Below, piece after piece: positions 3,041 through 23,378 of a stretch of 47,329 nt of DNA. The position numbers were made by a program, and so were the translations under genes. The number at the start of each line of letters is the position of its first letter. Positions within the stretch are counted from its first letter, which is position 1. The notes beneath the pieces were generated by a model. The model saw only the letters and a list, made by a program, of their open reading frames with translations, did not search any database and was not told the DNA's origin. This DNA comes from Luminiphilus sp. (GTDB taxonomy: Bacteria; Pseudomonadota; Gammaproteobacteria; Pseudomonadales; Halieaceae): the NCBI GenBank assembly GCA_029253705.1, contig JAQWYY010000001.1:1-47329 (forward strand). The letters are read 5' to 3'.

Positions 3041-4441
3041 ATGACTCAATCTTCATCTCCCTCCTACGCCCCTTCGACGGGTGACTTAGATCTCGAGCGC
3101 ATTCGCATGCAGCCGCAGTCAGTTGAGGCCGAGCGGTCGGTTATTGGCGGTTTGCTAATTTCATCTGAAGGCTGGGATGCCATCGCTGAGATTGTGGTAG
3201 CTGAGGACTTTTACCGACCGGAACACCGAGCCATATTTCGTCAGATCGCAAAACTCGTCGATTTGGGCCAGCCCGTTGACGTGATAACAGTGGCTGACCG
3301 CTTGCTGGCCACGGGAGAGCTAGACGCTGCCGGCGGCCATACCTATCTTGCTGAACTCGCGGAAACGACGCCCACGGCCGCCAACATTCGTGCTTACGCA
3401 ACAGCCGTACATGAGCGCGCGGTACTCAGAAAGCTGATCGGTGCGGCGCAGGATATCGCCAATACGGGCTTTCATCCTGAGGGTCGTGCCGCTGAGGAAC
3501 TGCTGGATGAGGCCGAGCGGCGCATCATGCAGATCTCCGAGGAAGGTCCCAAGACCGGCGGCGCCCGTGCCATGGAGCCGTTGTTGCAGGGTGCCCTTGA
3601 GCGGATCGAAGAGCTATTTCAAAGCGGCGGCGAAATATTAGGCTTAACGACGGGGTTTATTGATCTCGATCGCATGACTTCGGGCTTACAGGATTCAGAC
3701 TTGGTGATAGTGGCGGGCCGTCCCTCGATGGGTAAAACCGCTTTTGCGATGAACCTTGTTGAGAATGCCGCCTCAGGTAGCGAAAAGCCGATATTGGTGT
3801 TCTCGATGGAGATGCCGGCGGAACAGCTTGTCATCCGCATGATGTCCTCGCTAGGTAAGATCGATCAGACCCGTGTGCGAACCGGGAAACTTGAGCAAGA
3901 GGACTGGCCTAAACTTTCCGCCGCCATGGCAAAGTTAAAGGAGGCCAACGTTTTTATTGACGATACGCCAGCACTGACGCCCACAGAAGTGCGTTCCCGA
4001 GCGCGGCGCGTCTCTAGGGAGCAAGGATCATTGGGGATGATCATGGTGGATTATCTTCAACTCATGCGGGTGGCGGGTTCTAGTGAAGGGCGTACAGCAG
4101 AAATCTCAGAAATTTCTCGCAGCCTGAAAGCTATTGCTAAAGAGTTTAAGTGTCCGGTTGTTGCGCTATCACAGTTGAATCGAGCACTTGAGCAGCGACC
4201 CAATAAGCGCCCCGTAAATTCAGATCTTCGTGAGTCGGGAGCGATTGAGCAGGATGCTGACGTCATCATGTTTATCTATCGTGATGAGGTCTATCACGAG
4301 GATTCTCCGGATCAAGGCACCGCTGAGATTATTATTGGCAAGCAGCGAAACGGTCCTATAGGCACTTGTCGCCTGGCCTTTCAGGGCGAATATACCCGCT
4401 TTGATAATTTAGCTAGGGGTGATTACGGCGGTTACGCCTAA
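3041..4441 (+). CDS. dnaB: Replicative DNA helicase DnaB
   Basis: PQSVEAERSVIGGLL, VIVAGRPSMGKTAFAMN (Walker A), MVDYLQLM, LSQLNRALEQR..RP; no intein-like insertion. Confidence 0.97.
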   Translation: MTQSSSPSYAPSTGDLDLERIRMQPQSVEAERSVIGGLLISSEGWDAIAEIVVAEDFYRPEHRAIFRQIAKLVDLGQPVDVITVADRLLATGELDAAGGHTYLAELAETTPTAANIRAYATAVHERAVLRKLIGAAQDIANTGFHPEGRAAEELLDEAERRIMQISEEGPKTGGARAMEPLLQGALERIEELFQSGGEILGLTTGFIDLDRMTSGLQDSDLVIVAGRPSMGKTAFAMNLVENAASGSEKPILVFSMEMPAEQLVIRMMSSLGKIDQTRVRTGKLEQEDWPKLSAAMAKLKEANVFIDDTPALTPTEVRSRARRVSREQGSLGMIMVDYLQLMRVAGSSEGRTAEISEISRSLKAIAKEFKCPVVALSQLNRALEQRPNKRPVNSDLRESGAIEQDADVIMFIYRDEVYHEDSPDQGTAEIIIGKQRNGPIGTCRLAFQGEYTRFDNLARGDYGGYA

Positions 4442-4513: not shown

Positions 4514-5191
4514 TTACAGGTCTAGCGTCTCTCGAAGCTTGCTCAGGGCCTGTTGCCGTTCTTCTTTAGACATCGCAACGGTTGCTGGCTCAGGAAGCTC
4601 AGCGCGTGTTGGCAATACTATCGTTTCGCCCCGACTCAATCGAGCTACCCAGCGATCGTAATGGCCTTTGAAAACCGGCAGGGTCATGCGTTCGGCATTG
4701 TTGCTCAAAAAAAACCAATCACTGTCCCGTCCTGCGAAGTACACCACCGGGTGCGACCAGGTTTGTGCCAGTTTGGGTGATGGTTTCTCGCAGGCTTCTA
4801 TGAAAGCGTCTCTTAAAGGTGGTACGCCTAGCCGCTCAAGGGCCAGTTGGCAGCAGTCGAGCATGCGCTTGAGCGTAGGTAAGTAATCACTATCTTCAAT
4901 TGCGCGCTTTGCCCCGGTTAATATTGATTCCGCGGTGAAGCTGGAGAGTGCTTCTAGCCATAGGCGTTTTATTTGGTTCAGCTGGGTGGTGTCGGCATAG
5001 GCCGCGTAAAACTGATTGTGATAATTCAGCCTGAACAGGGCAAAAACCTGATTGATCGTATCGGCCAAGTCATCTCTCGGTGTCGCATCAGTTGGCCCAG
5101 CTGGTATCGCTGAGGTCGTCAGCGATGGATCGGTCCCGCGTACGATGTTCTCCGCCAGACTGCCCACGTCCTTGCTGTCCGCCATGGTCAT
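4514..5191 (-). CDS. Phage lambda replication protein P-like putative helicase loader
   Basis: INQVFALFRLNYHNQFYAAYADTTQLNQIKRLWLEAL...YLPTLKRMLDCCQ...HPVVYFAGR...F.GHYDRWVARLSRGE resembles lambda-P family proteins; no Walker A. Likely ATG start at about 5191/5185 (RBS-like AAAAAGGGA), inside the upstream gene; the track start 5365 overlaps much further. Confidence 0.55.
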   Translation of the reverse strand: MTMADSKDVGSLAENIVRGTDPSLTTSAIPAGPTDATPRDDLADTINQVFALFRLNYHNQFYAAYADTTQLNQIKRLWLEALSSFTAESILTGAKRAIEDSDYLPTLKRMLDCCQLALERLGVPPLRDAFIEACEKPSPKLAQTWSHPVVYFAGRDSDWFFLSNNAERMTLPVFKGHYDRWVARLSRGETIVLPTRAELPEPATVAMSKEERQQALSKLRETLDL

Positions 5192-6308
5192 TCCCTTTTT
5201 TGCCTGATTGTCCTTGTTCCCAGCGCCACTGGTGTTTGACGTGCTGCAAGAATTTGCTGTTCCAAGAGGTTTGAAGGTCTCCGGAGTCGCACCAGAAAAC
5301 TCGGAATTCCCCCAGACGTTCTGTGGCGTAGCTGCGTTCAATATTTGACAGCGCCAACACCTCAAAGACCTGCTCGCTGGGTTGCCAGTCCTGTGTCATG
5401 GGTCGAGGCTCGGGGCTGTGGCCTAGCCCTGCCTGAAAGCGTACCCAGCGTTGTCTAATCCAGCCTATGAATTTGCTGTTGACCTCTTTTGGCGGTCCGC
5501 CACGTTCTCGCCAGTACAAAATAAACTCGGGTCGCATTGAGTCTATGAATTCAAGGTCGACACCGTTACCCGCCATAATGTCCAATGCGTCATCGCTAGG
5601 GCGCCAGTTTTGATCGAAGGCCGGGGGTGCAGTAATTTCAAAGGCTGGGTGCTGACTTTGGTGACGTCTCCAAGCGCTGAGTACATGCTGCCTGAAGCGA
5701 TTGTCTGGTGCAGGGTCGGTTGGGGCCGGGCTGAACTGGGGCAGTTGTGACAAAGCAAATTGTCTGTTGATCCCGTGGCTCAGGTGCAGCAAATCTAAGA
5801 GGTCTTCTGACGGTTGCCAAGATCGCGCAGCTGCTTTAACGACTGGAGGCTCCGGTGACTTTTTTTCGGCTTGATAGGGGCTTGGTGGCGCCTTTGCATT
5901 TGGGTTGGACCGACCGGGTGCCGGTTGGGTTTGGGCCTTATCTGCTGCGAGTGCCGATGGCGCTGCCACTGCAGAAATTCGGATGACGTCAGCATTCTGA
6001 TTTTCATGGCGCACATGAATGATACCCAGAGCTTCAAGTCGCTCAAGAAGCTCACGAATTTTAGGCACCTCCCAGAAGGGGAAATTACGCTCAAACTCCG
6101 AAAGTGCGACGCATTGGCTTGCCTGCGGTCTGCCCAATAGCAGTTCGCCTAGCCCCTGCAGCAAAATGGCTTCCTCTAAGCCAATGGTCGCGGCAAGATC
6201 TGGCGAAAACGTCAGCTGGCGATCGGGAATGAGGGAACCTGGCGGCATGAAGTTAGGGATCTTAGGCTTGGGTTTGCTAGCATACCGCTGTGAAGCCTGT
6301 TCGTGCAC
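5088..6308 (-). CDS. DnaT-domain (primosomal) protein with three tandem DnaT-like repeats
   Basis: Three W-x-P-S repeats: SWQPSEDLLDLL.., NWRPSDDALDIM..EFILYWRERG..NSKFIGWIRQRW, DWQPSEQVFEVL..LGEFRVFWCDSG..WNSKFLQHVKHQW. N-terminal helical/wHTH-like region. Confidence 0.65.
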   Translation of the reverse strand: MHEQASQRYASKPKPKIPNFMPPGSLIPDRQLTFSPDLAATIGLEEAILLQGLGELLLGRPQASQCVALSEFERNFPFWEVPKIRELLERLEALGIIHVRHENQNADVIRISAVAAPSALAADKAQTQPAPGRSNPNAKAPPSPYQAEKKSPEPPVVKAAARSWQPSEDLLDLLHLSHGINRQFALSQLPQFSPAPTDPAPDNRFRQHVLSAWRRHQSQHPAFEITAPPAFDQNWRPSDDALDIMAGNGVDLEFIDSMRPEFILYWRERGGPPKEVNSKFIGWIRQRWVRFQAGLGHSPEPRPMTQDWQPSEQVFEVLALSNIERSYATERLGEFRVFWCDSGDLQTSWNSKFLQHVKHQWRWEQGQSGKKGNDHGGQQGRGQSGGEHRTRDRSIADDLSDTSWAN

Positions 6309-6342: not shown

Positions 6343-7716
6343 ATGCCCAAATCAAAGACCGCATTTGTTTGTAACGACTGCGGTGCAGACTACGGCAAGT
6401 GGCAAGGACAGTGTGGTGAGTGCTCAGCGTGGAATACCATCACAGAAATTCGCCTAGGCCCCGCCAGTAGCGGAAAAAGCAGTCTGCGGGGAGGCCGAGG
6501 AGGGTACGCGGGAGCGAGAGCGGAGGTAAAAGTTCTCAAAGATATTGACCTTGTCGACGTACCTCGATTCAGCAGTGGTTTTACTGAGCTTGATCGGGTG
6601 TTGGGCGGGGGGTTAGTGCCTGGTTCGGCTATTCTCATTGGCGGCCACCCCGGCGCAGGAAAAAGCACCCTACTGCTGCAGACGCTTTGTTATCTTGCCG
6701 CAGGCGGTCCTGCGCTGTACGTCACAGGCGAAGAAAGCCCTCAGCAAGTGGCCATGCGCGCCGACCGCCTTGAGCTTGCCGTCGATGCTTTACAGCTTAT
6801 GGCGGAAACCGAAGTGGATGCCATTCTTGCGGCCGCCGATGAAATGCGTCCCCGGGTTATGGTGGTAGATTCCATACAGGTGATGCACTCAGAGGGAATT
6901 ACATCAGCGCCGGGCAGCGTTTCCCAAGTGAGAGATTGCGCCGCGCAATTAACGCGATACGCCAAGCAGTCTGGGGTAGTTCTCATCTTGGTTGGCCATG
7001 TTACTAAAGATGGCAATCTCGCGGGCCCAAAAGTATTGGAACACATGATTGATTGCTCCATTTTGCTCGAGGGCGAGCATGACTCCCGTTTTCGAACCTT
7101 AAGAAGCAGTAAAAATCGTTTTGGCGCGGTCAATGAACTTGGTGTATTTGCCATGACCGATAGAGGCATGCGCGAAGTGAAAAACCCGTCGGCTATATTT
7201 CTTGATCGTGCTGAGGAGCCTGCCTCTGGGACAACCGTCATGGTGGTGTGGGAGGGCACTCGACCGCTGCTGGTAGAAATTCAGGCCTTGGTAGACGACA
7301 GCTCGCTTGGCAATCCTAGGCGAGTCGCGGTGGGATTTGAGCAAAACAGGCTTGCGATGCTGTTAGCGGTGCTACACCGTCACGGCGGCATTATGGTAGG
7401 TGACCAAGATGTCTTCGCTAATGTCGTGGGTGGCGTTCGAGTGACCGAAACCAGTGCCGATCTCGCGCTGCTGGTGGCTGTTGTCTCCAGCCTGAGGAAC
7501 CGTATTTTATCGCGGGATTGGGTTGTCTTTGGCGAAGTCGGGCTGTCGGGAGAAATTCGCCCAGTACCATCTGGTCAGGAACGGTTAAGTGAGGCGGCGA
7601 AACACGGCTTCAAGCGCGCTGTTGTGCCCAAGGGGAATGTACCCAAGCAGGCAATTGTCGGCCTCGAAGTCATTGGTGTGTCCCGACTGTCTGAGGCGTT
7701 AGAAGCCCTGCTGTGA
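6343..7716 (+). CDS. radA: DNA repair protein RadA/Sms
   Basis: C4 zinc finger CNDCGADYGKWQGQCGEC, Walker A GGHPGAGKSTLLLQ, KNRFGAVNELGVFAM, Lon-like C-terminus. Confidence 0.97.
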   Translation: MPKSKTAFVCNDCGADYGKWQGQCGECSAWNTITEIRLGPASSGKSSLRGGRGGYAGARAEVKVLKDIDLVDVPRFSSGFTELDRVLGGGLVPGSAILIGGHPGAGKSTLLLQTLCYLAAGGPALYVTGEESPQQVAMRADRLELAVDALQLMAETEVDAILAAADEMRPRVMVVDSIQVMHSEGITSAPGSVSQVRDCAAQLTRYAKQSGVVLILVGHVTKDGNLAGPKVLEHMIDCSILLEGEHDSRFRTLRSSKNRFGAVNELGVFAMTDRGMREVKNPSAIFLDRAEEPASGTTVMVVWEGTRPLLVEIQALVDDSSLGNPRRVAVGFEQNRLAMLLAVLHRHGGIMVGDQDVFANVVGGVRVTETSADLALLVAVVSSLRNRILSRDWVVFGEVGLSGEIRPVPSGQERLSEAAKHGFKRAVVPKGNVPKQAIVGLEVIGVSRLSEALEALL

Positions 7717-11070: not shown

Positions 11071-11257
11071 GTATACCTAACCCAACTAACGAGCGGCGGC
11101 CGCAGCTGGCGTCCAATACGACCTTTCGAGAATAGTTCCATCTAATCGCTCCCACAGACCGTTTTATCGCTTATGCCTTCATGTCGGCGGCTACAACCAG
11201 TAGCGTGAGCGGGCTAATAAATAACAATTCTAATTTTTTTTGGAGAGTCCCAAGACT

Positions 11258-14248
11258 ATGTCCCAACAAAAAGGTTTTAAAAAAGCACCGCTGGCGGCAG
11301 GGGTTGCTCTGGCAGTAGCGTCTCAGCTGAGTTTTGCCCAAGACGCGCCTGATGAAGTCAGTAGCGGCGTTTCAGACCCGGCGATGGAAGAAGTGATCGT
11401 AACTGGCATCCGTCAGAGTCTTCAGAAGTCCGCGGACATCAAACGCGATAACGCGGGTGTTGTGGATGCAATCACGGCTGAAGATATTGGTGCATTTCCT
11501 GATACCAACTTGGCAGAAGCACTTCAGCGCGTTACTGGAGTGGCGATTGATCGAACCCGTGGCGAAGGTCAGTATGTGACCGTCCGTGGTTTTGGTCCCG
11601 CTTTTAACCTAGTCACGCTTAACGGTCGTCAAATGCCAACAACGGGTGGCGACAGCCGATCATTCGACTTCAGCAACCTAGCGGTTGAGGGCGTTTCGAG
11701 AGTTGAGGTCTACAAAAGCGGTAAGGCCGACGTCCCGACGGGCGGCATTGGTTCTACCATAAATATTGTAACGACACGTCCTTTGGAGGCGCCGGGTTTT
11801 AACGCTACGGTCGCTGCATCGGCCATGCACGATACGTCAACAGAGACGGGCGATGACTTCACCCCTGAAGTGTCTTTGCTGATTTCAAATACCTTCCTTG
11901 ACGACACTGTGGGTATTTCTTTGAGTGCAGTACGCCAGGAGCGAAACAATGGCGCTGCTACTGCGAGTGTTGGCGGTTGGCGTAGTTTTGCCGGAGACGT
12001 AGATAACTGCTGGTGTAGCGCACGACCCTCTGAGTGGGGCGGTATTCCCTACGATTTGGCATCGCAGCAAAACAGACCCACGAGTGCTGACGAGCAATAT
12101 TCAGTGCCGCAGAACACAGGCTATGAGTTTGCCGAGTGGGATCGCGTGCGAACTAACGGGCAGCTGACCATGCAGTGGGCACCAACGGAGCGTCTGACTG
12201 CGACCGTTGATTACACTTACTCTGAAGTAGAGCTTGAGCGCACCTTTACCAACTACTCGGCTTGGTACAACTTTGGTGGTCAGGAAACGGTTTGGGATGG
12301 CAATAACAGCAATGCGTCGCCAACCACCTACGCTGAATTCAACGGCGGTACCGGTGACTTCGCTATGGCCGGTGGCAGCGATGCGACCGTCGCCGAAAAC
12401 ACCTCGATTGGCATTAACTTGGCTTGGGATGTGACTGATCGACTGTCACTCATGTTTGATTATCACGACTCTGATGCCGAGCAGCGCCCCGACAGTCCGT
12501 TTGGCAGCGCTTCGCAGCTGGCCATTTCTGCATTTTCTCGGGATAAGACAACAACTTACTTCGATCGTGGAGATTTACCGGTTCTAGCTTTGGATCTGTC
12601 TAACCCTCTCAGTACTGACGATATGATTGTAACTGGTAGCGTATTCGCGAATGACTACGCCAAAATGGAAATTGAACAGGCCCGATTTGGGGGTTCATTC
12701 GACTTTAACCCTGATGGCGTCGTAAAGAACATCGACTTTGGTGTTGAGTTTACTGAAGTCAACAACCGTTCGGCGGGCTCTGTAGTGCAGCGTGACGCTT
12801 GGGGTGGTGTATCCCAGGTAGGTGCTATTGCAGACCTTTTGACCGAGGTGTCCTCTGCCGGTCGGTTTGATGACATTTCAGGTGGCAGTGATCCTGAGCT
12901 GGTGACAAATTATTACGGTTTTGACATGCCTGCGCTTATTGAGCGCACGGAGCAGTTGATGGCCAGCGGTGATGCCGCCACTTTTGCGGTGCCTGATATG
13001 GGTGATTGCGGAACGGGTCTTTGTGCCTCCAGCACCTACAGTTCTGATCGACGCACCACAGAAGAGCAGCTCGCAGCTTACTTTCAGGTGAATATGGGCT
13101 TTGATATTGGCGCAGTGCCTGTTGATGTTCGGCTTGGCGTGCGCTACGAAGAGACCGATATCGATTCCCAAGCATTGGCACCTAGCTATTCGCGGATCGA
13201 CTGGGTTGGCGGCAATGAGTTTAGCGCAGTCCCGGGAGACGCAGACTTTACCGAGCTAAGTGGTAGCTACGACAACGTGTTGCCTAATCTAGATGTCAAA
13301 GTGGGCTTGACCGAAACAATAGTGGCTCGATTCTCCTACAGCAAAACAATGACTCGCCCCAACTATGCAGATATTCAGGGTGGCCAAACCATTGACCAAC
13401 TGCTGCGAATCGATGGTGGCACAGGATCTCGGGGTAACCCAAACCTCAAGCCCTTCGAGTCTGACAACATTGACCTGTCTTTTGAGTGGTACTACGGCGA
13501 TGCCAGCTACTTCTCTGTGGGCTACTTCACAAAAGACGTTGAAAATTTCATTGGCTTCGCCGAATTCAATGAAACGCTGTTTGACCTTCCACACCCGGGT
13601 AACGGCAGTTATGCCGATGAGGCCAGGGCGGCGTTAGGTAACGCGGCGACTTCCGGTGAATTGTATGATTGGATTCTGGCTAATAAAGCTGGATCTCCGG
13701 GGGTCAACACGGCTAACGGTTCAATCACTGGTCAGTCTGGTGACAGTCTTGCTAACTTCCGCGTGACTGCGCCAATTAACCAAGATGACGATACCGTCGA
13801 TGGTTGGGAAATTAACCTTCAGCACACCTTTGGTCAGACGGGCTTTGGCTTTATCGCAAATGCCACATTGGTTGAATCAGACACCGAATATGATAATACC
13901 GACCGCACCCAGCAGTTTGTGGTCTCTGGTATTGGTGATTCGGCTAACCTGATTGGCTTTTATGAGAATGATCGATTCTCAATTCGAGTGGCTTATAACT
14001 GGCGGGATGATTTCCTCGCCGGTACCGGCCAGGCCAACGTTGGCGCAATTCCACCGACCTACGTCGGAGAGTACGACCAGTGGGATATCGGTGCGCAGTT
14101 CCATGTGACTGATAACCTGTCGGTTTTTGCGGACGCAATCAACATTACGGACGAGACAACCTACGTCTACGGACGGAGCGAATCTCAGCCACTGTTCGTT
14201 GCACAACAGGGTGCTCGATACAATGTAGGTGTTCGCTATACCTTCTGA
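11258..14248 (+). CDS. TonB-dependent receptor (Xanthomonas/Caulobacter oligosaccharide type)
   Basis: Signal peptide, EEVIVTGIRQSLQKSADIKRDNAGVVDAITAEDIGAFPDTNLAEALQRVTGVAIDR..GEGQYVTVRGFGP plug domain; C-terminal aromatic VGVRYTF. ATG 11258 preferred over the track TTG 11240. Confidence 0.95.
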   Translation: MSQQKGFKKAPLAAGVALAVASQLSFAQDAPDEVSSGVSDPAMEEVIVTGIRQSLQKSADIKRDNAGVVDAITAEDIGAFPDTNLAEALQRVTGVAIDRTRGEGQYVTVRGFGPAFNLVTLNGRQMPTTGGDSRSFDFSNLAVEGVSRVEVYKSGKADVPTGGIGSTINIVTTRPLEAPGFNATVAASAMHDTSTETGDDFTPEVSLLISNTFLDDTVGISLSAVRQERNNGAATASVGGWRSFAGDVDNCWCSARPSEWGGIPYDLASQQNRPTSADEQYSVPQNTGYEFAEWDRVRTNGQLTMQWAPTERLTATVDYTYSEVELERTFTNYSAWYNFGGQETVWDGNNSNASPTTYAEFNGGTGDFAMAGGSDATVAENTSIGINLAWDVTDRLSLMFDYHDSDAEQRPDSPFGSASQLAISAFSRDKTTTYFDRGDLPVLALDLSNPLSTDDMIVTGSVFANDYAKMEIEQARFGGSFDFNPDGVVKNIDFGVEFTEVNNRSAGSVVQRDAWGGVSQVGAIADLLTEVSSAGRFDDISGGSDPELVTNYYGFDMPALIERTEQLMASGDAATFAVPDMGDCGTGLCASSTYSSDRRTTEEQLAAYFQVNMGFDIGAVPVDVRLGVRYEETDIDSQALAPSYSRIDWVGGNEFSAVPGDADFTELSGSYDNVLPNLDVKVGLTETIVARFSYSKTMTRPNYADIQGGQTIDQLLRIDGGTGSRGNPNLKPFESDNIDLSFEWYYGDASYFSVGYFTKDVENFIGFAEFNETLFDLPHPGNGSYADEARAALGNAATSGELYDWILANKAGSPGVNTANGSITGQSGDSLANFRVTAPINQDDDTVDGWEINLQHTFGQTGFGFIANATLVESDTEYDNTDRTQQFVVSGIGDSANLIGFYENDRFSIRVAYNWRDDFLAGTGQANVGAIPPTYVGEYDQWDIGAQFHVTDNLSVFADAINITDETTYVYGRSESQPLFVAQQGARYNVGVRYTF

Positions 14249-14268
14249 TGCCGCAAGGCACTGATGAC

Positions 14269-14291
14269 AAAGCTGCCCTCGGGCAGCTTTT
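14269..14291 (+). terminator. Rho-independent terminator downstream of the TonB-dependent receptor
   Basis: AAAGCTGCC-CTCG-GGCAGCTTTT hairpin followed by a T-rich run. Confidence 0.8.
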
Positions 14292-14348
14292 GTCGTTTAA
14301 AGAGCGTTAAAATAAGCGCTGATAAGAACAAGGTTACAGGCTAGATTA

Positions 14349-15920
14349 ATGCGTACAACTGAGCATGTCGTTATTGTAGGTGGTGGTACTGCTGGCTGGC
14401 TCACCGCGGCTAGACTGGGTGCAATGGCTAACCGTCAATTCGATATCACTTTGGTGGAGTCGCCCAGTGTTCCCACAGTGGGTGTTGGCGAAGGTACCTG
14501 GCCATCAATGAAGGCTACGCTGCAGGCGATTGGGCTGTCAGAACGGGTTTTAATTTCAGAGTGCGACGCCAGTTTGAAGCAGGGCACGCTATTCCATGGC
14601 TGGCGGACCGGCGCTGGGGATGACAGTTATTTGCATCCGTTTAGTTTGCCCCCCGAGTACGCGTCAAAAAATATTGCTGAATATTGGCGACGAGATGGAT
14701 TGCGCTATCCATTCCACGAAGTTGTCACGCCCCAAACACTTATCGCAACTACTTACAAAGCGCCTAAAACAGCGGATACCCCAGACTACGCGTTTGCGCT
14801 TAATTATGGGTATCACGTCGATGCAGTGAAGTTTGCCGAACTGTTGCGGCGACACAGTATCTCGCATTTTGGGGTGCGGCATGTAGAAGGCCATGTTGCC
14901 GGTGTGAACAGCGACGCCGAGGGTTTCCTCACGAGCTTAGAGCTTGAGGGCGGTGATCGGTTATCGGGCGACTTTTTTGTCGATTGTTCGGGTCAGAGAG
15001 CCCTGCTTATTGGTGGCCATTTCCAAATGTCCTTTGAGTCGGCTCGGCAGGTGCTGCCTAATAATCGGGCTGTGGTGGCTCAAGTGCCTTACAACGAACC
15101 CAACGATGAAATCCACTCTTGCACACAGTCGAGTGCTCAAGACTGCGGCTGGATTTGGGATATTGGTCTTCAGTCTCGTCGTGGCATTGGCTATGTTCAC
15201 AATGCCGACCTGATCTCCGAAGCTGATGCAACTCAGGCCCTTCGAGACTATGCCGAGCAATCGGTGGGAGCCCAAGTTGCCAAAGATTTAGCGTGCCGCA
15301 CGCTAAATTTTGAACCTGGCTATCGCACTACTCCCTGGACCCATAATTGTGTGGCTGTAGGCTTGTCTGCTGGATTTATAGAGCCTTTAGAAGCATCAGC
15401 TCTGGCCATGATTGAACAGGCGGCTTCATTTTTGGTTGAAAGCTTTCCTGTAAACCGAGATCTTATGGGGCCAGCCTCCCGCGCGTTTAATCGTAAAATG
15501 CAGAGCAATTGGGCAAGTATTCAGGAATTTCTCAAGCTCCACTATGTATTAAGCGATCGTGACGACACGCCCTATTGGCGGCAGGCAAAAGATGAAGCGG
15601 GTATCTCAGAGGCGCTGTCAGACAAGCTGGCTTTGTGGCAGGTTCGGGCGCCTTGGCACCCTGACACACCACGTATTGATGAGCTATTTCCTGCCGCGAG
15701 CTATCAGTACGTTTGGCTCGGTATGAACGGCCATCTCAATGGCGTGTTAGGGTCAGAAAAACAGGGTGGCACAAATAACGTTGGCAACAGCTCTGATCTT
15801 GACTCTATCTTATTCAAGGTGAGGGAGCGTGCCCTGCAATTGTCACGAGCTATGCCGGGGAATCGGCAATTGCTCAATGCCCTTCGAATGAATAACCCTG
15901 CAGCGACGGTAACAGCATGA
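14349..15920 (+). CDS. Flavin-dependent (tryptophan-type) halogenase family protein, copy 1
   Basis: GGGTAGW FAD motif, SLKQGTLFHGW catalytic-Lys region, GLSAGFIEPLEAS; variant WxWx motif WIWDIG. Confidence 0.85.
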   Translation: MRTTEHVVIVGGGTAGWLTAARLGAMANRQFDITLVESPSVPTVGVGEGTWPSMKATLQAIGLSERVLISECDASLKQGTLFHGWRTGAGDDSYLHPFSLPPEYASKNIAEYWRRDGLRYPFHEVVTPQTLIATTYKAPKTADTPDYAFALNYGYHVDAVKFAELLRRHSISHFGVRHVEGHVAGVNSDAEGFLTSLELEGGDRLSGDFFVDCSGQRALLIGGHFQMSFESARQVLPNNRAVVAQVPYNEPNDEIHSCTQSSAQDCGWIWDIGLQSRRGIGYVHNADLISEADATQALRDYAEQSVGAQVAKDLACRTLNFEPGYRTTPWTHNCVAVGLSAGFIEPLEASALAMIEQAASFLVESFPVNRDLMGPASRAFNRKMQSNWASIQEFLKLHYVLSDRDDTPYWRQAKDEAGISEALSDKLALWQVRAPWHPDTPRIDELFPAASYQYVWLGMNGHLNGVLGSEKQGGTNNVGNSSDLDSILFKVRERALQLSRAMPGNRQLLNALRMNNPAATVTA

Positions 15921-16642
15921 GCAACTTTCAAATACTCAATAACGTCGACCATAAAGATCTGCGTATCGTGGAAGCGGTGGGTCCGGAGTTCGGGGATGAC
16001 ATTCACAGTTGCCCCGCATACACCTTTGAATTTAGAGACCTTCAGGTGGATTTTCCGATTTTGCTGCAAGCCACCGAGCACGATGGGCTAATACCTGTGG
16101 CAGTCATGGGATTTGAGCCGGGGGAAAACCTGTTTTTAAAGAACTCCGAATGGGCGGCGCTGAGTCGGCCTGCGTTCATGCGCAAGGGCCCATTTTTGAT
16201 TGGGCAGCACCAGTCGGAAGAGGGCGAAGAGGTGCGATTGTTGAGCGTCGACATGGCGCATCCTCGAGTCTCCCAGGGCGCACAGGGGGAGGCTGTTTTT
16301 CAGCCACTGGGTGGGAGAACTCAGTACCTCGAACAGCAGGCCGATTTACTGGAAAAAATCCATGAAGGCGCAGGCCATACCCAGCGATTTACGCAATGTC
16401 TTGCGGATCTCGACCTTGTTGAGTCAATTACCCTCGATATAAGTTTGCAGGATGGATCCAAAAATCAGTTGATTGGCTTTTCGGCGATCAACGAAGATAA
16501 CGTAAGGGCTTTGTCGGCAGAGAGTCTCGAGCTGCTGTCCCAGCAGGGGTTCATCATGCCCTTATTCATGATGCTGGCCTCATTGTCGAATATGGGGCGG
16601 CTGATTCAATTTAAACAACAAATCCGAGACGCTAAACAGTGA
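15917..16642 (+). CDS. SapC family protein
   Basis: HSCPAYTFEFRDLQVDFPILLQ..., ALMGFEPGENLFL-like core, C-terminal GFSAINEDNVRALS; 4-bp overlaps with both neighbours. Confidence 0.8.
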   Translation: MSNFQILNNVDHKDLRIVEAVGPEFGDDIHSCPAYTFEFRDLQVDFPILLQATEHDGLIPVAVMGFEPGENLFLKNSEWAALSRPAFMRKGPFLIGQHQSEEGEEVRLLSVDMAHPRVSQGAQGEAVFQPLGGRTQYLEQQADLLEKIHEGAGHTQRFTQCLADLDLVESITLDISLQDGSKNQLIGFSAINEDNVRALSAESLELLSQQGFIMPLFMMLASLSNMGRLIQFKQQIRDAKQ

Positions 16643-17658
16643 CAGATCAGGCTCCTAGCATTGTTGAAACCGTTGAGGGAATAACCCCCGATGCGATTCC
16701 AGCTTGGGTGTTTGAACGGGAAGAGCCCCTTGTTTTACGTGGTCTGGTGGCCGATTGGCCAGCTATTCCCAAGGGGGATGGCGACCTCGAGCAGCTTGAG
16801 GGTTATCTTTCCAAGTTTTGGACGGCAAAGCCTGTGACTGCCTATGTTGCCCCTACGGAAGTGGGGGGGCGCTTTGGCTATAACGGCGCCTTCAACGGTT
16901 TCAATTTTCGCAGTGGCAATGCCCCTCTTGAGGATATTTTGCAGCGCCTGCGGGAGCAGGCAGATCCGGACAATAAAGAGCCGTTATCGATTTACGTTGG
17001 CTCTACCCCCATAGCGGGTTGGCTGCCAGGCTTTGAAAAAGCGAACGCACTAAAAATTCCGGGTGATCCTTTGGTGAATTTCTGGCTTGGCAATCGCACA
17101 ACGGTTTCGGCACATTACGATTTCCCCAGCAATGTGGCATGTGTTGTATATGGTCGCCGCGAGTTTACGCTGTTCCCCACGGATCAAATTGGCAATCTTT
17201 ACGTCGGCCCTCTCGACCGAACTCCGTCCGGACAGCCTATTAGTCTGGTCGATTTTGCGGCGCCTGATTTCGAAAAATTTCCTCGTTTTCGCGATGCCAT
17301 GGCGGTGTCTCAGCGCTGTGAGCTGGGTCCGGGAGACGCCATTTTTATTCCTAGTATGTGGTGGCACCACGTTAAGGCACTAGCAGATTGTAATTTGTTG
17401 GTGAATTACTGGTGGCTCGATCACGAGCAACACTTTGGTTCGCCATTTAATGCTTTGCTCCATGGGGTGTTATCTATTCGCCATTTGCCCGAAGCACAGC
17501 GTTTGGCGTGGCAGAAGCTGATGAATTTTTACGTATTTGAATCAGACCCGGAGGCCACCGAGCATATTCCTGATCATGCGTTGGGATGTCTGGGAGAAAT
17601 GAATAAAATTGAAGCAGATCGCCTCCGCGAAGAATTACTGAATAGATTGAAGACATAA
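16639..17658 (+). CDS. Cupin-like / JmjC-domain (cupin_8) protein
   Basis: VSAHYDFPSNVACVVYGRREFTLFP (HxD) and FIPSMWWHHVKAL. Confidence 0.85.
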   Translation: MTDQAPSIVETVEGITPDAIPAWVFEREEPLVLRGLVADWPAIPKGDGDLEQLEGYLSKFWTAKPVTAYVAPTEVGGRFGYNGAFNGFNFRSGNAPLEDILQRLREQADPDNKEPLSIYVGSTPIAGWLPGFEKANALKIPGDPLVNFWLGNRTTVSAHYDFPSNVACVVYGRREFTLFPTDQIGNLYVGPLDRTPSGQPISLVDFAAPDFEKFPRFRDAMAVSQRCELGPGDAIFIPSMWWHHVKALADCNLLVNYWWLDHEQHFGSPFNALLHGVLSIRHLPEAQRLAWQKLMNFYVFESDPEATEHIPDHALGCLGEMNKIEADRLREELLNRLKT

Positions 17659-17689
17659 CAGCGCCCTGCAGGCACTTGGAGTCAGTTCG

Positions 17690-19174
17690 ATGGAACATCA
17701 GAAGATCAAACACGTCGTCATAGCGGGAGGTGGTACCGCCGGGTGGATGGCGGCCGCGGCGGTAGCAAAACTGCTGGGTAAAACAGTCAAGGTCACCCTA
17801 GTAGAGTCTGAAGAAATTGGCACGGTTGGTGTTGGGGAAGCAACGATCCCAACGCTCTTGACCCTCCATGAACTGCTGAAGATTAAAGAGCAGGATTTCA
17901 TCAGCGCCGTGGGCGGCACGTTTAAGCTGGGTATTTCTTTTGAAAACTGGCACGACGTGGGTAAAGACTATATCCACTCCTTTGGTTACACCGGTAAAGA
18001 TTGTTGGGCGGCGGGTTTTCAGCATTTTTGGCTAAAAGGGAAAGAGCTGGGAATTAGCAAGGAGTTTGGTGAGTACTGTAATGAATGGGCAGCTGCCAAG
18101 CAGAATCGATTTGCGGTTTTGCCCAATCAGAATCTCAATTACGCTTATCATTTCGACTCGTCACGTTACGCTAAGTTCCTGAGAGAAATTGCAGAGGAAC
18201 ACGGCGCCGTTCGCGTTGAAGGCAAAATTGAAGCGGTACAGCAGCACGAGCAAACCGGCTTTATTACTGGGCTTCGCCTTGATAATGATCAGCAGATTGA
18301 TGGTGATTTCTTCGTTGACTGCACGGGCTTCCGAGGGCTCTTGATAGAGCAAACTTTGCATGCTGGCTACGACGACTGGCAGCATTGGTTGCCTTGCGAC
18401 AGTGCCTTGGCGGTACAAACAGAGAACGTTCAGCCACCGATCCCTTACACACGCTCTATAGCCCATGAGGCTGGGTGGCAGTGGCGGATTCCACTTCAGC
18501 ATCGCACCGGCAATGGCTTGGTGTATTGCAGTAAATTTTGGTCGCGAGACGAGGCCGAGGCGAAATTACGGGGTAATCTTGAAGGCGAAATGGTCACTGA
18601 GCCCCGGCCGATTAAGTTTCAGACCGGGACGCGGCGGCGTCACTGGGTAAAGAACTGTGTGGCTGTGGGGTTGTCCAGCGGATTCATGGAGCCTTTGGAA
18701 TCGACCAGCATTCATCTCATTCAGCGCAGTATTGTTCGGTTTATGCAGATGTTTCCCTCGGATGGGGTTCGCCAGCCGGACATTGATGAATTCAACAGTC
18801 AGATGAAGTTCGAAATCGAAAATATCCGAGATTTCATCATCCTTCATTACCATGTCACCAACCGCACCGATACGCCATTCTGGCGTCATTGTCGCACTAT
18901 GGAAATCCCAGAGTCTCTGCAACATCGTATCGATTTATTCAAGGAGACAGGGCGGGTATTCAAAGTGCCAACGGAGCTGTTTGGTGAAAATTCCTGGACG
19001 CAGGTCATGTTGGGTCAGGGCCTTAACCCGGAGCAGTATCATCCCATCGTCAACATGATGGAAGAGCAGGAGTTGCGGGATTTCCTAGGTGGAATCCACG
19101 GTTCGGTCGAGCGCCTAGTAAGCCAGCTGCCTGAGCATCAGCGGTTTATCGATCATTACTGTCGAGAGGCGTGA
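17690..19174 (+). CDS. Flavin-dependent (tryptophan-type) halogenase family protein, copy 2
   Basis: AGGGTAGWMAAAAVAK, FKLGISFENW, canonical WQWRIP (WxWxIP), GLSSGFMEPLESTSIHL. Confidence 0.92.
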   Translation: MEHQKIKHVVIAGGGTAGWMAAAAVAKLLGKTVKVTLVESEEIGTVGVGEATIPTLLTLHELLKIKEQDFISAVGGTFKLGISFENWHDVGKDYIHSFGYTGKDCWAAGFQHFWLKGKELGISKEFGEYCNEWAAAKQNRFAVLPNQNLNYAYHFDSSRYAKFLREIAEEHGAVRVEGKIEAVQQHEQTGFITGLRLDNDQQIDGDFFVDCTGFRGLLIEQTLHAGYDDWQHWLPCDSALAVQTENVQPPIPYTRSIAHEAGWQWRIPLQHRTGNGLVYCSKFWSRDEAEAKLRGNLEGEMVTEPRPIKFQTGTRRRHWVKNCVAVGLSSGFMEPLESTSIHLIQRSIVRFMQMFPSDGVRQPDIDEFNSQMKFEIENIRDFIILHYHVTNRTDTPFWRHCRTMEIPESLQHRIDLFKETGRVFKVPTELFGENSWTQVMLGQGLNPEQYHPIVNMMEEQELRDFLGGIHGSVERLVSQLPEHQRFIDHYCREA

Positions 19175-19316
19175 GTTGAATCCCTTTGGCCGTGGGTTTT
19201 ATCCCTCTCGTCGCATCTGGCTAGAACATCCGAACAGCCCGCAATAATCTCTATCGTGGAGCACCTTGTCTGGAAGCAGAATAGGGCCAAATAATAATCA
19301 CTAGGTAGATGTAGAG

Positions 19317-21803
19317 ATGAGTAAGTTGCGCGTCTTCGCGGTAGTAACGCTGAGTGTTGTCTCGGTTCTTGGCGGGGTGCTGGCCGCCGGTTGTACCAGC
19401 CCATCAGAACCCTCCGTCACCTCTGATCCTGAACAAGCGGCCAAAGCACTCCTAGCGACACTTTCTTTAGAACAGAAAGTCGGCCAGATGATTCAAGGTG
19501 AGATCTCACAGGTCACTCCAGATGATTTGCGCAAATACGGCTTAGGCAGTGTTCTCAACGGTGGGGGTTCTTTTCCTGGTGGCGAAAAGCGCGCATCTAT
19601 TGATGACTGGCTAGCACTCGCAGACGCCTATTACCTCAGCTCAATTGATACCACTCAGGGCAATGCGGGTATTCCTGTTATTTGGGGCACTGATGCAGTG
19701 CATGGGCATAACAATGTCGTGGGTGCCACTATATTTCCGCACAACATTGGCTTGGGTGCTGCAGGTGATCCTACTTTGGTGGCAGCCATTAGTGGCGCTA
19801 CAGCTCGAGAAGTGAAGGCTACCGGTATCGACTGGATTTTCGCGCCTACTGTGGCGGTTGCTCGAGATTATCGTTGGGGGCGAACCTACGAATCTTATAG
19901 TTCCGACGCTGCTGTGGTGGCTTCTTATGCGGGTGGCATGGTTGAGGCAATGCAAGCGGAGGGTATCGTAGCAACAACGAAACACTTTGTTGGTGACGGT
20001 GCAACGGTCTCTGGTGTTGACCGAGGCGATACACGGTTAGCGCTAGAGGAGTTAATCGAAGTGCACGGCGCTGGGTACAAGCCAGCTATTGCTGCTGGCG
20101 TACAAACGGTAATGGCATCGTTTAACAGCTGGAACGGAGAGAAGGTGCACGGCAACAAAGCGTTGCTAACAGACGTATTGCGAGGTGACCTCGGATTTGA
20201 TGGCTTCGTGGTGAGCGACTGGAATGGCATTGGCGAAGTTGAAGGCTGTACCGATGATGACTGTCCGCAAGCCATCAATGCTGGCATTGATATGGTTATG
20301 GTGCCGCAGGATTGGCGGTCGGCACTGGATAATTTGGTTGCTCAAGTACGAGCCGGCGTTGTGTCGGAAGCTCGGATTGATGAGGCAGTGCTGCGCATCT
20401 TGAAAATTAAGTTTGCGTCCGGCCTCATGGAGCGAGGTCTGCCATCGAAAATAGGACGGCCATTACAGTCGCAGGTGGGCAGTCAAGACCACCGCGCCTT
20501 AGCGAGAGAAGCTGTGCGTCGTTCGTTGGTCTTGCTGAAGAACGAAAAGGGTTTATTACCTCTTGATCCGGCGGGTCAATACCTGGTTGTGGGTGAGGGC
20601 GCTGACAATATTGGCATGCAGTCTGGCGGGTGGACGATTAGCTGGCAGGGAACCGGGAATTCTAATGAAGATTTTCCTAACGGTACTTCGTTACTCGATG
20701 GCTTTGTTGAACAAGTTTCCAAGGCTGGGGGTAAGGTCTATCACAATGAGCCTATTCCTGATGGAGTAGAGATTGATGGCGTGATTGCAGTGTTTGGCGA
20801 AACGCCTTACGCGGAAATGCAGGGGGATATTTCCTCTTTGGCATGGCAACAGCCAGATTTCTCAGATCTTGCGCTGTTAAAGCAATACCAAGCCCAAGGC
20901 CTCTCGATAGTCTCGGTTTTTCTGTCTGGCAGGCCATTGTGGGTAAACCGTGAAATCAATGCTTCGTCAGCTTTCGTTGCTGCTTGGCTGCCGGGCAGTG
21001 AGGGGGCTGGTGTTGCGGAGGTCCTATTCCGAAACCCTGACGGTTCGGTACAAAATGAATTTGTCGGGCGCTTGCCGATGTCATGGCCTAGTGCCGATAT
21101 TCACGCAAACGACAGAAGCCTTGCGGTTGTAGATACGGCATTCTCTCGAGGTTATGGGCTTACCACCGAGGCTGTGGAAACGGTCGCTGCACTACCCGAA
21201 GCGCCCCGTGGCGAAGCATTGTCCCTTGATCGTCCTGTGTTTGCCGGTGGCGCGCGCGGACCTTGGCGCCTCTACCTAGGCAATGAGCTCGATTGGGCGG
21301 TTGCTAGTGGGCCCCGTGGGGGCGCGACTCGGGATGAACAGCTGGCAGTTTCAGTTATTGATCACCGTGTGCAGGAGGATGCCAGGCGGCTGGAGTGGAG
21401 CGGTAATGGAGGTCGATCCAGTCAGGTTTATTTCCGTACCGACAACCCCATCAATGTCTCTGATTTGAGCACTTCGGGTGGGGCGATGGTGTTTGAGATT
21501 CGTCTGGGCCAGCAACCTATTGAGCCGGTGAAACTCCGCATGGATTGTTTGTGGCCATGCAGTGGTGAGCTGGATGTTACGCAGCAGTTTGAGGACCTTG
21601 AGCTTGCGGCGTGGCACCGATTGGCGATACCGCTTGCCTGCTTTGAAGCGGCCGGTACTGATATGAGCGCTGTGGATGTGCCGTTTCTGATGAGTACTTC
21701 AGGGGCATTTAGCGTTGATCTTGCTGAGGTGACTCTGGTTGAAAAAATTTCCGAAGCGAGCTTGTTGAGCTGCCCCATAAAAGAAGTAGCTAGCCTAAAC
21801 TAG
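19317..21803 (+). CDS. Glycoside hydrolase family 3 exo-beta-glucosidase, predicted lipoprotein
   Basis: Lipobox LAAGC; KQKVGQMIQGE-like start, GTDAVHGHNNVVGATIFPHNIGLG, FVVSDWNG (nucleophile Asp), ExoP-like C-terminal domain. Confidence 0.93.
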   Translation: MSKLRVFAVVTLSVVSVLGGVLAAGCTSPSEPSVTSDPEQAAKALLATLSLEQKVGQMIQGEISQVTPDDLRKYGLGSVLNGGGSFPGGEKRASIDDWLALADAYYLSSIDTTQGNAGIPVIWGTDAVHGHNNVVGATIFPHNIGLGAAGDPTLVAAISGATAREVKATGIDWIFAPTVAVARDYRWGRTYESYSSDAAVVASYAGGMVEAMQAEGIVATTKHFVGDGATVSGVDRGDTRLALEELIEVHGAGYKPAIAAGVQTVMASFNSWNGEKVHGNKALLTDVLRGDLGFDGFVVSDWNGIGEVEGCTDDDCPQAINAGIDMVMVPQDWRSALDNLVAQVRAGVVSEARIDEAVLRILKIKFASGLMERGLPSKIGRPLQSQVGSQDHRALAREAVRRSLVLLKNEKGLLPLDPAGQYLVVGEGADNIGMQSGGWTISWQGTGNSNEDFPNGTSLLDGFVEQVSKAGGKVYHNEPIPDGVEIDGVIAVFGETPYAEMQGDISSLAWQQPDFSDLALLKQYQAQGLSIVSVFLSGRPLWVNREINASSAFVAAWLPGSEGAGVAEVLFRNPDGSVQNEFVGRLPMSWPSADIHANDRSLAVVDTAFSRGYGLTTEAVETVAALPEAPRGEALSLDRPVFAGGARGPWRLYLGNELDWAVASGPRGGATRDEQLAVSVIDHRVQEDARRLEWSGNGGRSSQVYFRTDNPINVSDLSTSGGAMVFEIRLGQQPIEPVKLRMDCLWPCSGELDVTQQFEDLELAAWHRLAIPLACFEAAGTDMSAVDVPFLMSTSGAFSVDLAEVTLVEKISEASLLSCPIKEVASLN

Positions 21804-21818
21804 AGCGGGTATTAACCT

Positions 21819-23378
21819 ATGCTGTCATCACTAGATATTACTATTGTTGTCATTTACGCCATCGCTTTGTTTGGCTTGGCCCAGTGGGTATCTCGGGAAA
21901 AACCCGGGCACCAGAAAGACGCGTCAGATTACTTTCTCGCGGGCAAGTCGTTGCCTTGGTGGGCGATAGGGGCGTCACTGATCGCGGCTAATATTTCGGC
22001 AGAGCAGATTATTGGTATGTCAGGCTCGGGCTATGCTATTGGCCTTGCGATCGCTTCGTATGAATGGATGGCAGCCATCACGCTTATTCTCGTGGGTAAG
22101 TTTTTACTTCCGGTCTTTTTGAAAACCGGCATTTACACAATGCCGCAATTTTTGGAGCAACGTTACGACCATCGTGTTAGAACCGTGATGGCCAGTTTTT
22201 GGCTGGGTGTCTATGTCTTTGTGAACCTGACCTCTATTTTGTGGTTGGGAGCCCTGGCAATTAATACTGTGGCAGGGGTCGATTTGACCCTGGGTTTGGT
22301 GCTGCTGGGACTTTTTGCGGTGTCGTATTCCTTGTATGGCGGCCTTAAAGCGGTAGCGCTGACCGATATCGTTCAAGTGGTGTTATTGGTGGCAGGTGGC
22401 CTCATGATCGCGGCGATTCTTTTGGAGAAGGTGTCAGAAGGCTCCGGTGTAGTTCAGGGGTTCGTAATGCTTATGGACACCGTGCCAGATCGCTTTGACA
22501 TGATCCTTGCTAAGGATCACCCGCATTACATGAGTTTGCCGGGAATCTCTGTTTTGATTGGCGGTATGTGGGTTATGAATGTCTCCTACTGGGGTTTCAA
22601 TCAATACATCATTCAACGAGCCCTAGCCGCTAAAAGTGTGAGCGAGGCCCAAAAAGGAATCGCTTTCGCCGCTTTTTTGAAGCTGCTGATGCCTCTCATT
22701 GTTGTTTTGCCCGGAATTGCCATGTTCGCACTGAACGCTGACTTGGCCACCCCCGATCAGGCTTACCCCTCGGCCATGGCTTTGTTGCCTACGGGTATAA
22801 AGGGGCTGGTCTTCGCCGCTTTGCTGGCGGCTATTGTGTCGTCACTGGCGTCAATGTGTAACAGTATTTCAACGATTTTCACCGTTGATCTATTGCCTTC
22901 GATGGTCTCCGAGACTTGGTTGGAACGGAACCGAGTTTTCAGTGGTCGTGTTACTGCATTGGTGGCTATGGCCATTGCTATGGCAGCTGCACAGCCATTG
23001 CTCGGTAATTTTGATCAGGCTTTTCAGTACATTCAAGAGTTCACAGGGTTCTTTACGCCGGGCATTGTCGCGATCTTTTTGTTGGGTATGTTTTGGAGCA
23101 AAACCACAGCGACTGGCGCTTTGCTTGCCGCTGTCGGTTCGGCAGTTTTGTCTTTGGCGATGAAGCTTCTTTTACCTACGCTGCCATTTATCGATCGAGT
23201 AGGCATTGTTTTCTTATTATGCGTTGGTATCGCTGTGGTTTGGTCCTTGGCAAGACCTCAGCCGCAACCTGGTTACATTCAACCCTCCGGAGTGAGCTTT
23301 TCAACTACCAATGGCTTTAATGCAGCGGCCGTTGTAGTGACGTGCATATTGGCATTTTTCTATACAACTTGGTGGTAA
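21819..23378 (+). CDS. Sodium/solute (SSS/SGLT) symporter, probably sugar
   Basis: DYFLAGKSLPWWAIGASLIAANISAEQIIGMSGSGY, TDIVQVVLLVAGG, NQYIIQRALAAKS, LASMCNSISTIFTVDLL. Confidence 0.93.
   Translation: MLSSLDITIVVIYAIALFGLAQWVSREKPGHQKDASDYFLAGKSLPWWAIGASLIAANISAEQIIGMSGSGYAIGLAIASYEWMAAITLILVGKFLLPVFLKTGIYTMPQFLEQRYDHRVRTVMASFWLGVYVFVNLTSILWLGALAINTVAGVDLTLGLVLLGLFAVSYSLYGGLKAVALTDIVQVVLLVAGGLMIAAILLEKVSEGSGVVQGFVMLMDTVPDRFDMILAKDHPHYMSLPGISVLIGGMWVMNVSYWGFNQYIIQRALAAKSVSEAQKGIAFAAFLKLLMPLIVVLPGIAMFALNADLATPDQAYPSAMALLPTGIKGLVFAALLAAIVSSLASMCNSISTIFTVDLLPSMVSETWLERNRVFSGRVTALVAMAIAMAAAQPLLGNFDQAFQYIQEFTGFFTPGIVAIFLLGMFWSKTTATGALLAAVGSAVLSLAMKLLLPTLPFIDRVGIVFLLCVGIAVVWSLARPQPQPGYIQPSGVSFSTTNGFNAAAVVVTCILAFFYTTWW

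Follow-up and report, generated by a model that had tools for sequence, protein, structure and literature searches.

Bacteria cannot replicate without loading their replicative helicase, and phage genes have taken over this step several times. A lambda-derived gene pair was reportedly proposed by Brezellec et al. in 2017 (Genome Biol Evol 9:1561) as a third type of helicase matchmaker, replacing dciA and dnaC, and is said to have been named dopC and dopE there. The Cellvibrionales lack both loaders, dciA and dna[CI] (Brezellec 2016, PMC5109545), and in a 2026 paper DopE is listed together with DciA among the accepted loader families (PMC13326638). In phage lambda, the P protein captures and opens DnaB (PMC6391071), and P binding has been assigned to the C-terminal region of the O protein (PMC6022878).

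We analysed a window of 47,329 nt from Luminiphilus sp., a member of the Halieaceae (NCBI order Cellvibrionales), comprising positions 1-47,329 of contig JAQWYY010000001.1 in assembly GCA_029253705.1. The original prediction described two same-strand genes convergent with dnaB and read them as a candidate helicase-loading module, and both genes are indeed present on the minus strand. The first, dopC-like (5088-6308), encodes a protein with a predicted winged helix, three DnaT domains and a conserved C-terminal tail. The second, dopE-like (4514-5191), encodes a lambda P-type helicase loader recognized by PF06992, by phrog_109 and by a fold match to lambda P. The replicative helicase gene dnaB (3041-4441, plus strand) converges on the pair, in a neighbourhood conserved in the Halieaceae, and radA (6343-7716, plus strand) diverges from it and serves as a synteny marker, since it adjoins dopC in 37 of 43 loci. 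We consider it highly probable that this is the dopC/dopE matchmaker published for the Cellvibrionales, whose name reaches us through citing papers. The locus has a chromosomal lambda P-type protein and an adjacent same-strand partner of phage-initiator type, in a host of an order without dciA and dna[CI], and neither dciA nor a resident dnaC or dnaI was found; the suggestion that this could be the DopC/DopE system is thus supported. The module is therefore already known. What is new here is a motif in the DopC tail, a constraint from dual coding and the extent of the reciprocal distribution with dciA. Our overall reading, which we hold very probable, is that the pair is a resident, phage-derived loading module that replaces a lost dciA, with the DopC tail handing over a DopE-DnaB complex.

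The start of dopE may be the ATG at 5191 (225 aa) or that at 5185 (223 aa), the latter opening with MADSK and preceded by AAGGGA 7 nt upstream. The start at 5365 given in a mechanical list of open reading frames was rejected, because homologues begin at about 5185 (MADSK) or 5191. For dopC, the candidates are GTG 6308 and ATG 6248 (M21, 386 aa), and the second may be the likelier true start, because alignments with relatives begin only at M21 and the stretch before it is interrupted by a stop in three close relatives. The two coding sequences overlap by 98 nt (5088-5185, minus strand), or by 104 nt if dopE starts at the upstream ATG, and the length of the overlap is conserved across the clade with three DnaT repeats (mostly 86-98 nt). 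Pairwise comparisons of eight Luminiphilus sequences gave, within the overlap, 125 substitutions that are silent in dopC and change DopE versus 26 that do the opposite, an asymmetry that marks dopC, at the level of these sequences, as the constrained frame. The overlap probably couples the translation of the two genes. Further along the window (11240-23378) lie a TonB-dependent receptor, then two tryptophan-halogenase-like FAD proteins, SapC, a cupin, a GH3 glycosidase and a sodium:solute symporter, which have the appearance of a marine gammaproteobacterial cluster for polysaccharide use.

The resemblance of the second protein to lambda P was borne out, as was its lack of an AAA+ Walker A motif. 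The Pfam family Phage_lambda_P (PF06992) matches it with E=6.7e-9 (36.2 bits, cut-off 26) and matches all 22 members of the DopE-like alignment; the PHROG family phrog_109, 'P-like helicase loader', matches with 9.6e-21. No P-loop of the form G....GK[ST] occurs in the protein or its homologues, and PF01695, the family of the DnaC/DnaI AAA+ loaders, gives no match in it. When the AlphaFold2 model (mean pLDDT 77.7) was compared with the PDB, the top match was lambda P from the DnaB-lambda P complex 9oa1 (E=1.3e-6, probability 1.00); of the matches listed, only the five lambda P chains of 9oa1 and 9oa2 reached a probability of 1.00. The predicted fold thus resembles lambda P as seen in its complex with DnaB, in favour of the original prediction. 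When PDB sequences were searched with a profile of the DopE alignment, only chance matches came up.

The three tandem DnaT-like repeats announced for the first protein were also recovered, with three matches to Pfam DnaT (PF17948; E=4.6e-52, 174 bits, cut-off 25), so that both Pfam families named in advance match above their curated cut-offs. All on the minus strand, domains 1 (5646-5825) and 2 (5421-5612) are placed approximately, from Pfam and the DopC alignment, and domain 3 (5208-5402) from Pfam, with E=1.4e-25 at these coordinates. To this description we add the C-terminal tail and the N-terminal domain, a predicted winged helix at approximately 5970-6203 (minus strand; residues 16-93 of the 386-aa form). 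The AlphaFold2 model of DopC has a mean pLDDT of 69.2, and its N-terminus shows the order of helices and strands of a winged helix, with many winged-helix Foldseek matches, none below E=0.05; the confidence of the model in this part is only moderate. PHROG families of replication initiation or DnaD-like helicase loader proteins match up to 12 of 20 DopC orthologues. The Phage_rep_O domain (PF04492) has no Pfam match in the DopC-like protein and matches the O protein of phage PAJU2 at 3.9e-19; DopC would work like O, yet it is not filed in that family. The number of DnaT repeats is three in most families, sometimes four, and one in families f2, f6, f8, f27, f36 and f39 and in one Halieaceae genus (g7). 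Two loci of this genus (L131 and L173) have a DopC in the same syntenic place that keeps the winged helix and the tail around a single DnaT domain, and these sequences suggest a loss of two repeats within the Halieaceae.

The tail of DopC, RTRDRSIADDLSDTSWAN, is encoded at 5091-5144 (minus strand), with the core D-T-S-W at 5097-5108. Every chromosomal DopC whose end is complete carries the motif D-[T/R or similar]-[S/D]-W, in most cases with A after it. It was found in 83 of 84 distinct tails picked automatically, and the 84th came from a wrong choice of reading frame at one locus (L145), whose correct DopC carries the motif as well, making 84 of 84. The motif also persists at loci without a gene overlap (L115, L070, L071, L176) and in DopCs that have a single DnaT domain. 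Among phage initiators of O type whose gene immediately precedes that of a P-type loader, obtained through PAJU2-type P and leaving near-identical lambda O relatives in viral contigs out of the counts, 24 of 28 distinct tails have the motif and 4 lack its exact form; the ends of lambda O (TNTDWIYGVDL) and PAJU2 O (NDTSWAVGL) both share it. In contrast, it occurs in none of 13 distinct tails of O homologues that have the same N-terminal domain and precede a DnaB-like helicase (Fisher p=1.4e-7, a value that overstates independence, because the phage tails are related by descent). A scan of viral contigs with the DopE-like protein alone found no relative. In one viral contig, a DnaD-like open reading frame (L341:2477-3421) ends in GDTDW, as chromosomal single-repeat DopCs do, with no P-like gene detected downstream.

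These patterns point to the DopC tail as a putative docking peptide through which the initiator contacts its loader, DopE. Lambda genetics is consistent with this: an O protein without its last five residues (YGVDL, the first of them two residues beyond the W) does not allow plating on a non-suppressing host (PMC6022878, where the stop allele is Oam205 in the tables and Oam29 in the discussion). A wider claim, that D-x-[S/T/D]-W(A) is a general docking signal for the handover of DnaB from O-type to P-type proteins both in lambdoid phages and chromosomally in most families of the order, is one towards which we lean slightly. Our limited literature search found no published description of the motif. 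The tail might instead be conserved for binding DnaB, SSB or DnaA, its link with P reflecting shared ancestry of the O proteins, since the phage O tails found beside P are mutually related. We regard this as the less probable explanation, if a serious one, because the tail is absent when O with the same N-terminal domain precedes a helicase and persists across DopCs of differing domain content and without gene overlap.

On our overall reading, the module would work much as O and P do. DopE, as a non-AAA+ loader of lambda P type, would bind DnaB and break its ring or hold it open, leading to loading. DopC would be the adaptor on the initiator side, of the lambda O, DnaD or DnaT type, its winged helix and three DnaT domains binding DNA and/or DnaA or PriA at the opened origin or fork, and its C-terminal D-[T/R]-[S/D]-W(A) tail handing over DopE-DnaB as lambda O hands over P-DnaB. 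We would expect such a pair to be essential. It could also serve replication restart only, as a PriA-DopC-DopE pathway resembling PriA-DnaT-DnaC of E. coli, with another loader or none acting at oriC. The DnaT domains are of the restart-protein type, with a weak structural match to DnaT (E about 0.01), and PriC was not found in 29 relatives. We nevertheless think restart alone unlikely, because no other loader (DciA or DnaC) was detected, the distribution of the pair replaces that of dciA, a gene essential for initiation in P. aeruginosa (PMC5109545), and the phage counterparts act at an origin.

A DopE-like gene was found in 129 of 140 Halieaceae genomes, and in 76 of the 78 near-complete ones, with a family-specific query, used because a six-frame genome search with PF06992 misses most members of the family (30 of 140 genomes matched). 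DciA (PF05258) was found in none of the 140 genomes, nor does it match either protein of the pair. The survey for dnaC and dciA thus revealed neither DciA nor a resident DnaC in the genome, the genus or the family, a result that rests mainly on the family-wide search, the assembly itself being 82% complete. Strong matches to PF01695 (DnaC/IstB) are scattered, as expected of IS21, and those scoring about 25 bits, which lie in open frames some 500 aa long and occur in nearly every genome, were set aside as cross-matches to DnaA because of their frame length and universality. The wider sample of 295 genomes from the order contains 180 with a DnaT domain, 180 with a DopE match and 91 with DciA; the first two features occur together in 178 genomes, none of which, in lists compared by eye, has DciA. 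The exceptions are single matches: DciA with a DopE match in one genome (G199, E=6e-18) and DciA with one DnaT domain in two others (G363 and G385). The pair is carried by 28 of the 47 sampled families and DciA by 17, so the proposed loading module is not narrowly clade-specific. Some genomes of family f36 (G265, G174, G238, G210) have up to ten DopE-like and six DnaT-domain matches each, and the extra ones may be prophage or mobile copies beside the resident pair.

One may ask whether a diverged DciA missed by the HMM, or some other loader, does the essential loading and leaves dopC/dopE an accessory role. PF05258 does miss some genomes of the order, and about 24 of the 295 (e.g. G161, G175, G182 and G184) show neither DciA nor any dop match, which may reflect missed detections, diverged DciA, incomplete assemblies or another loader. 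For the Halieaceae we judge this very improbable, because the search that finds no DciA in the family is the one that finds 91 in the rest of the order. The gammaproteobacterial dciA site moreover lies between secA and lpxC (PMC5109545), and in the complete relatives inspected, where the order is ftsZ-lpxC-M23 peptidase-secA, there is no dciA between lpxC and the M23 peptidase gene, the gap of about 50-170 nt being too short for it.

The gene order radA-dopC-dopE-dnaB-rplI is conserved in the Halieaceae; dopC and dopE are adjacent in all 43 loci checked, 28 of which have dnaB on the same fragment. Where single-repeat families were examined, neither radA nor dnaB adjoins the pair. The DopE proteins of the three-repeat clade form a single clade (support 99/97) whose inner order follows the families, and this form is vertically inherited, whereas the single-repeat families occupy two separate positions with respect to phage P proteins, an uncertain placement given the long phage branches. 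From the topology of this sequence tree one deep domestication is clear and a second event is possible. The conserved place and the vertical inheritance are those of a domesticated pair, which is resident and not part of a prophage. That it is a prophage or mobile-element remnant lying beside dnaB by chance is scarcely credible: both genes encode phage-type proteins, and the O-P gene order is known from phages (PAJU2), but the locus has housekeeping flanks, conserved synteny and intact frames, occurs in nearly every genome of the family and gives a tree that follows taxonomy. Another contig of the assembly (C278:1-6000, L174) carries a second rplI-dnaB-dopE-dopC-radA block at 88-99% protein identity; we rejected a paralogue and read it as probably a second strain in the metagenome-assembled genome, because the whole rplI-radA block is repeated and contamination is 5.6%.

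The locus is a clear instance of the replacement of a helicase loader by phage genes in an abundant marine genus, and the comparison shows dciA replaced in over half of the families sampled from the order. The motif in the tail links the genetics of lambda O, whose last five residues are essential, to chromosome replication in free-living bacteria, and makes a bioinformatic proposal testable at one residue. If it is a general docking signal, a contact between a phage initiator and its loader would have become an essential step of host chromosome replication.

Compared with known systems, the pair is, like the published DopC/DopE, a phage-lambda-derived gene pair of the Cellvibrionales, and nothing tested contradicts their identity; the triple DnaT domains, the docking-like tail motif and the coding overlap are described here from sequence. 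DciA (DUF721) shares the inferred role and has a reciprocal distribution, but it has no sequence match to the pair and belongs to an unrelated fold family. The DopE N-terminal helices superpose on the SPP1 helicase loader/inhibitor G39P (TM 0.80 on the target, 2.0 A over 69 columns), a likeness that is not significant alone (Foldseek E=1.3) and is accompanied by a weak Pfam match in 2 of 22 DopE-like proteins. B. subtilis DnaD and the DnaD-like phage initiators resemble DopC in the layout of a winged helix and DNA-binding repeats, and the PHROG DnaD-like helicase loader family matches 12 of 20 DopC members; the partner of DnaD is, however, the AAA+ loader DnaI, and the DnaD-like phage protein Suso has neither the tail nor a P-like partner. 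The parallel first drawn with E. coli dnaT-dnaC holds in that a DnaT-domain protein is encoded just before a helicase loader, here of a non-AAA+ phage type, whereas DnaC is AAA+ and DnaT has one DnaT domain, ends in IPPGFRG and lacks a D-x-S-W tail. Lambda O-P is the better parallel. The lambda genes overlap by 4 nt, against about 100 nt in dopC/dopE, which are chromosomal and conserved, and DopC has DnaT domains in place of a Pfam Phage_rep_O domain. Yet both systems have the O-then-P gene order, an initiator with an N-terminal DNA-binding region and a loader of the P-type fold (9oa1), and the C-terminus of lambda O, NTDWIYGVDL, matches the tail of DopC.
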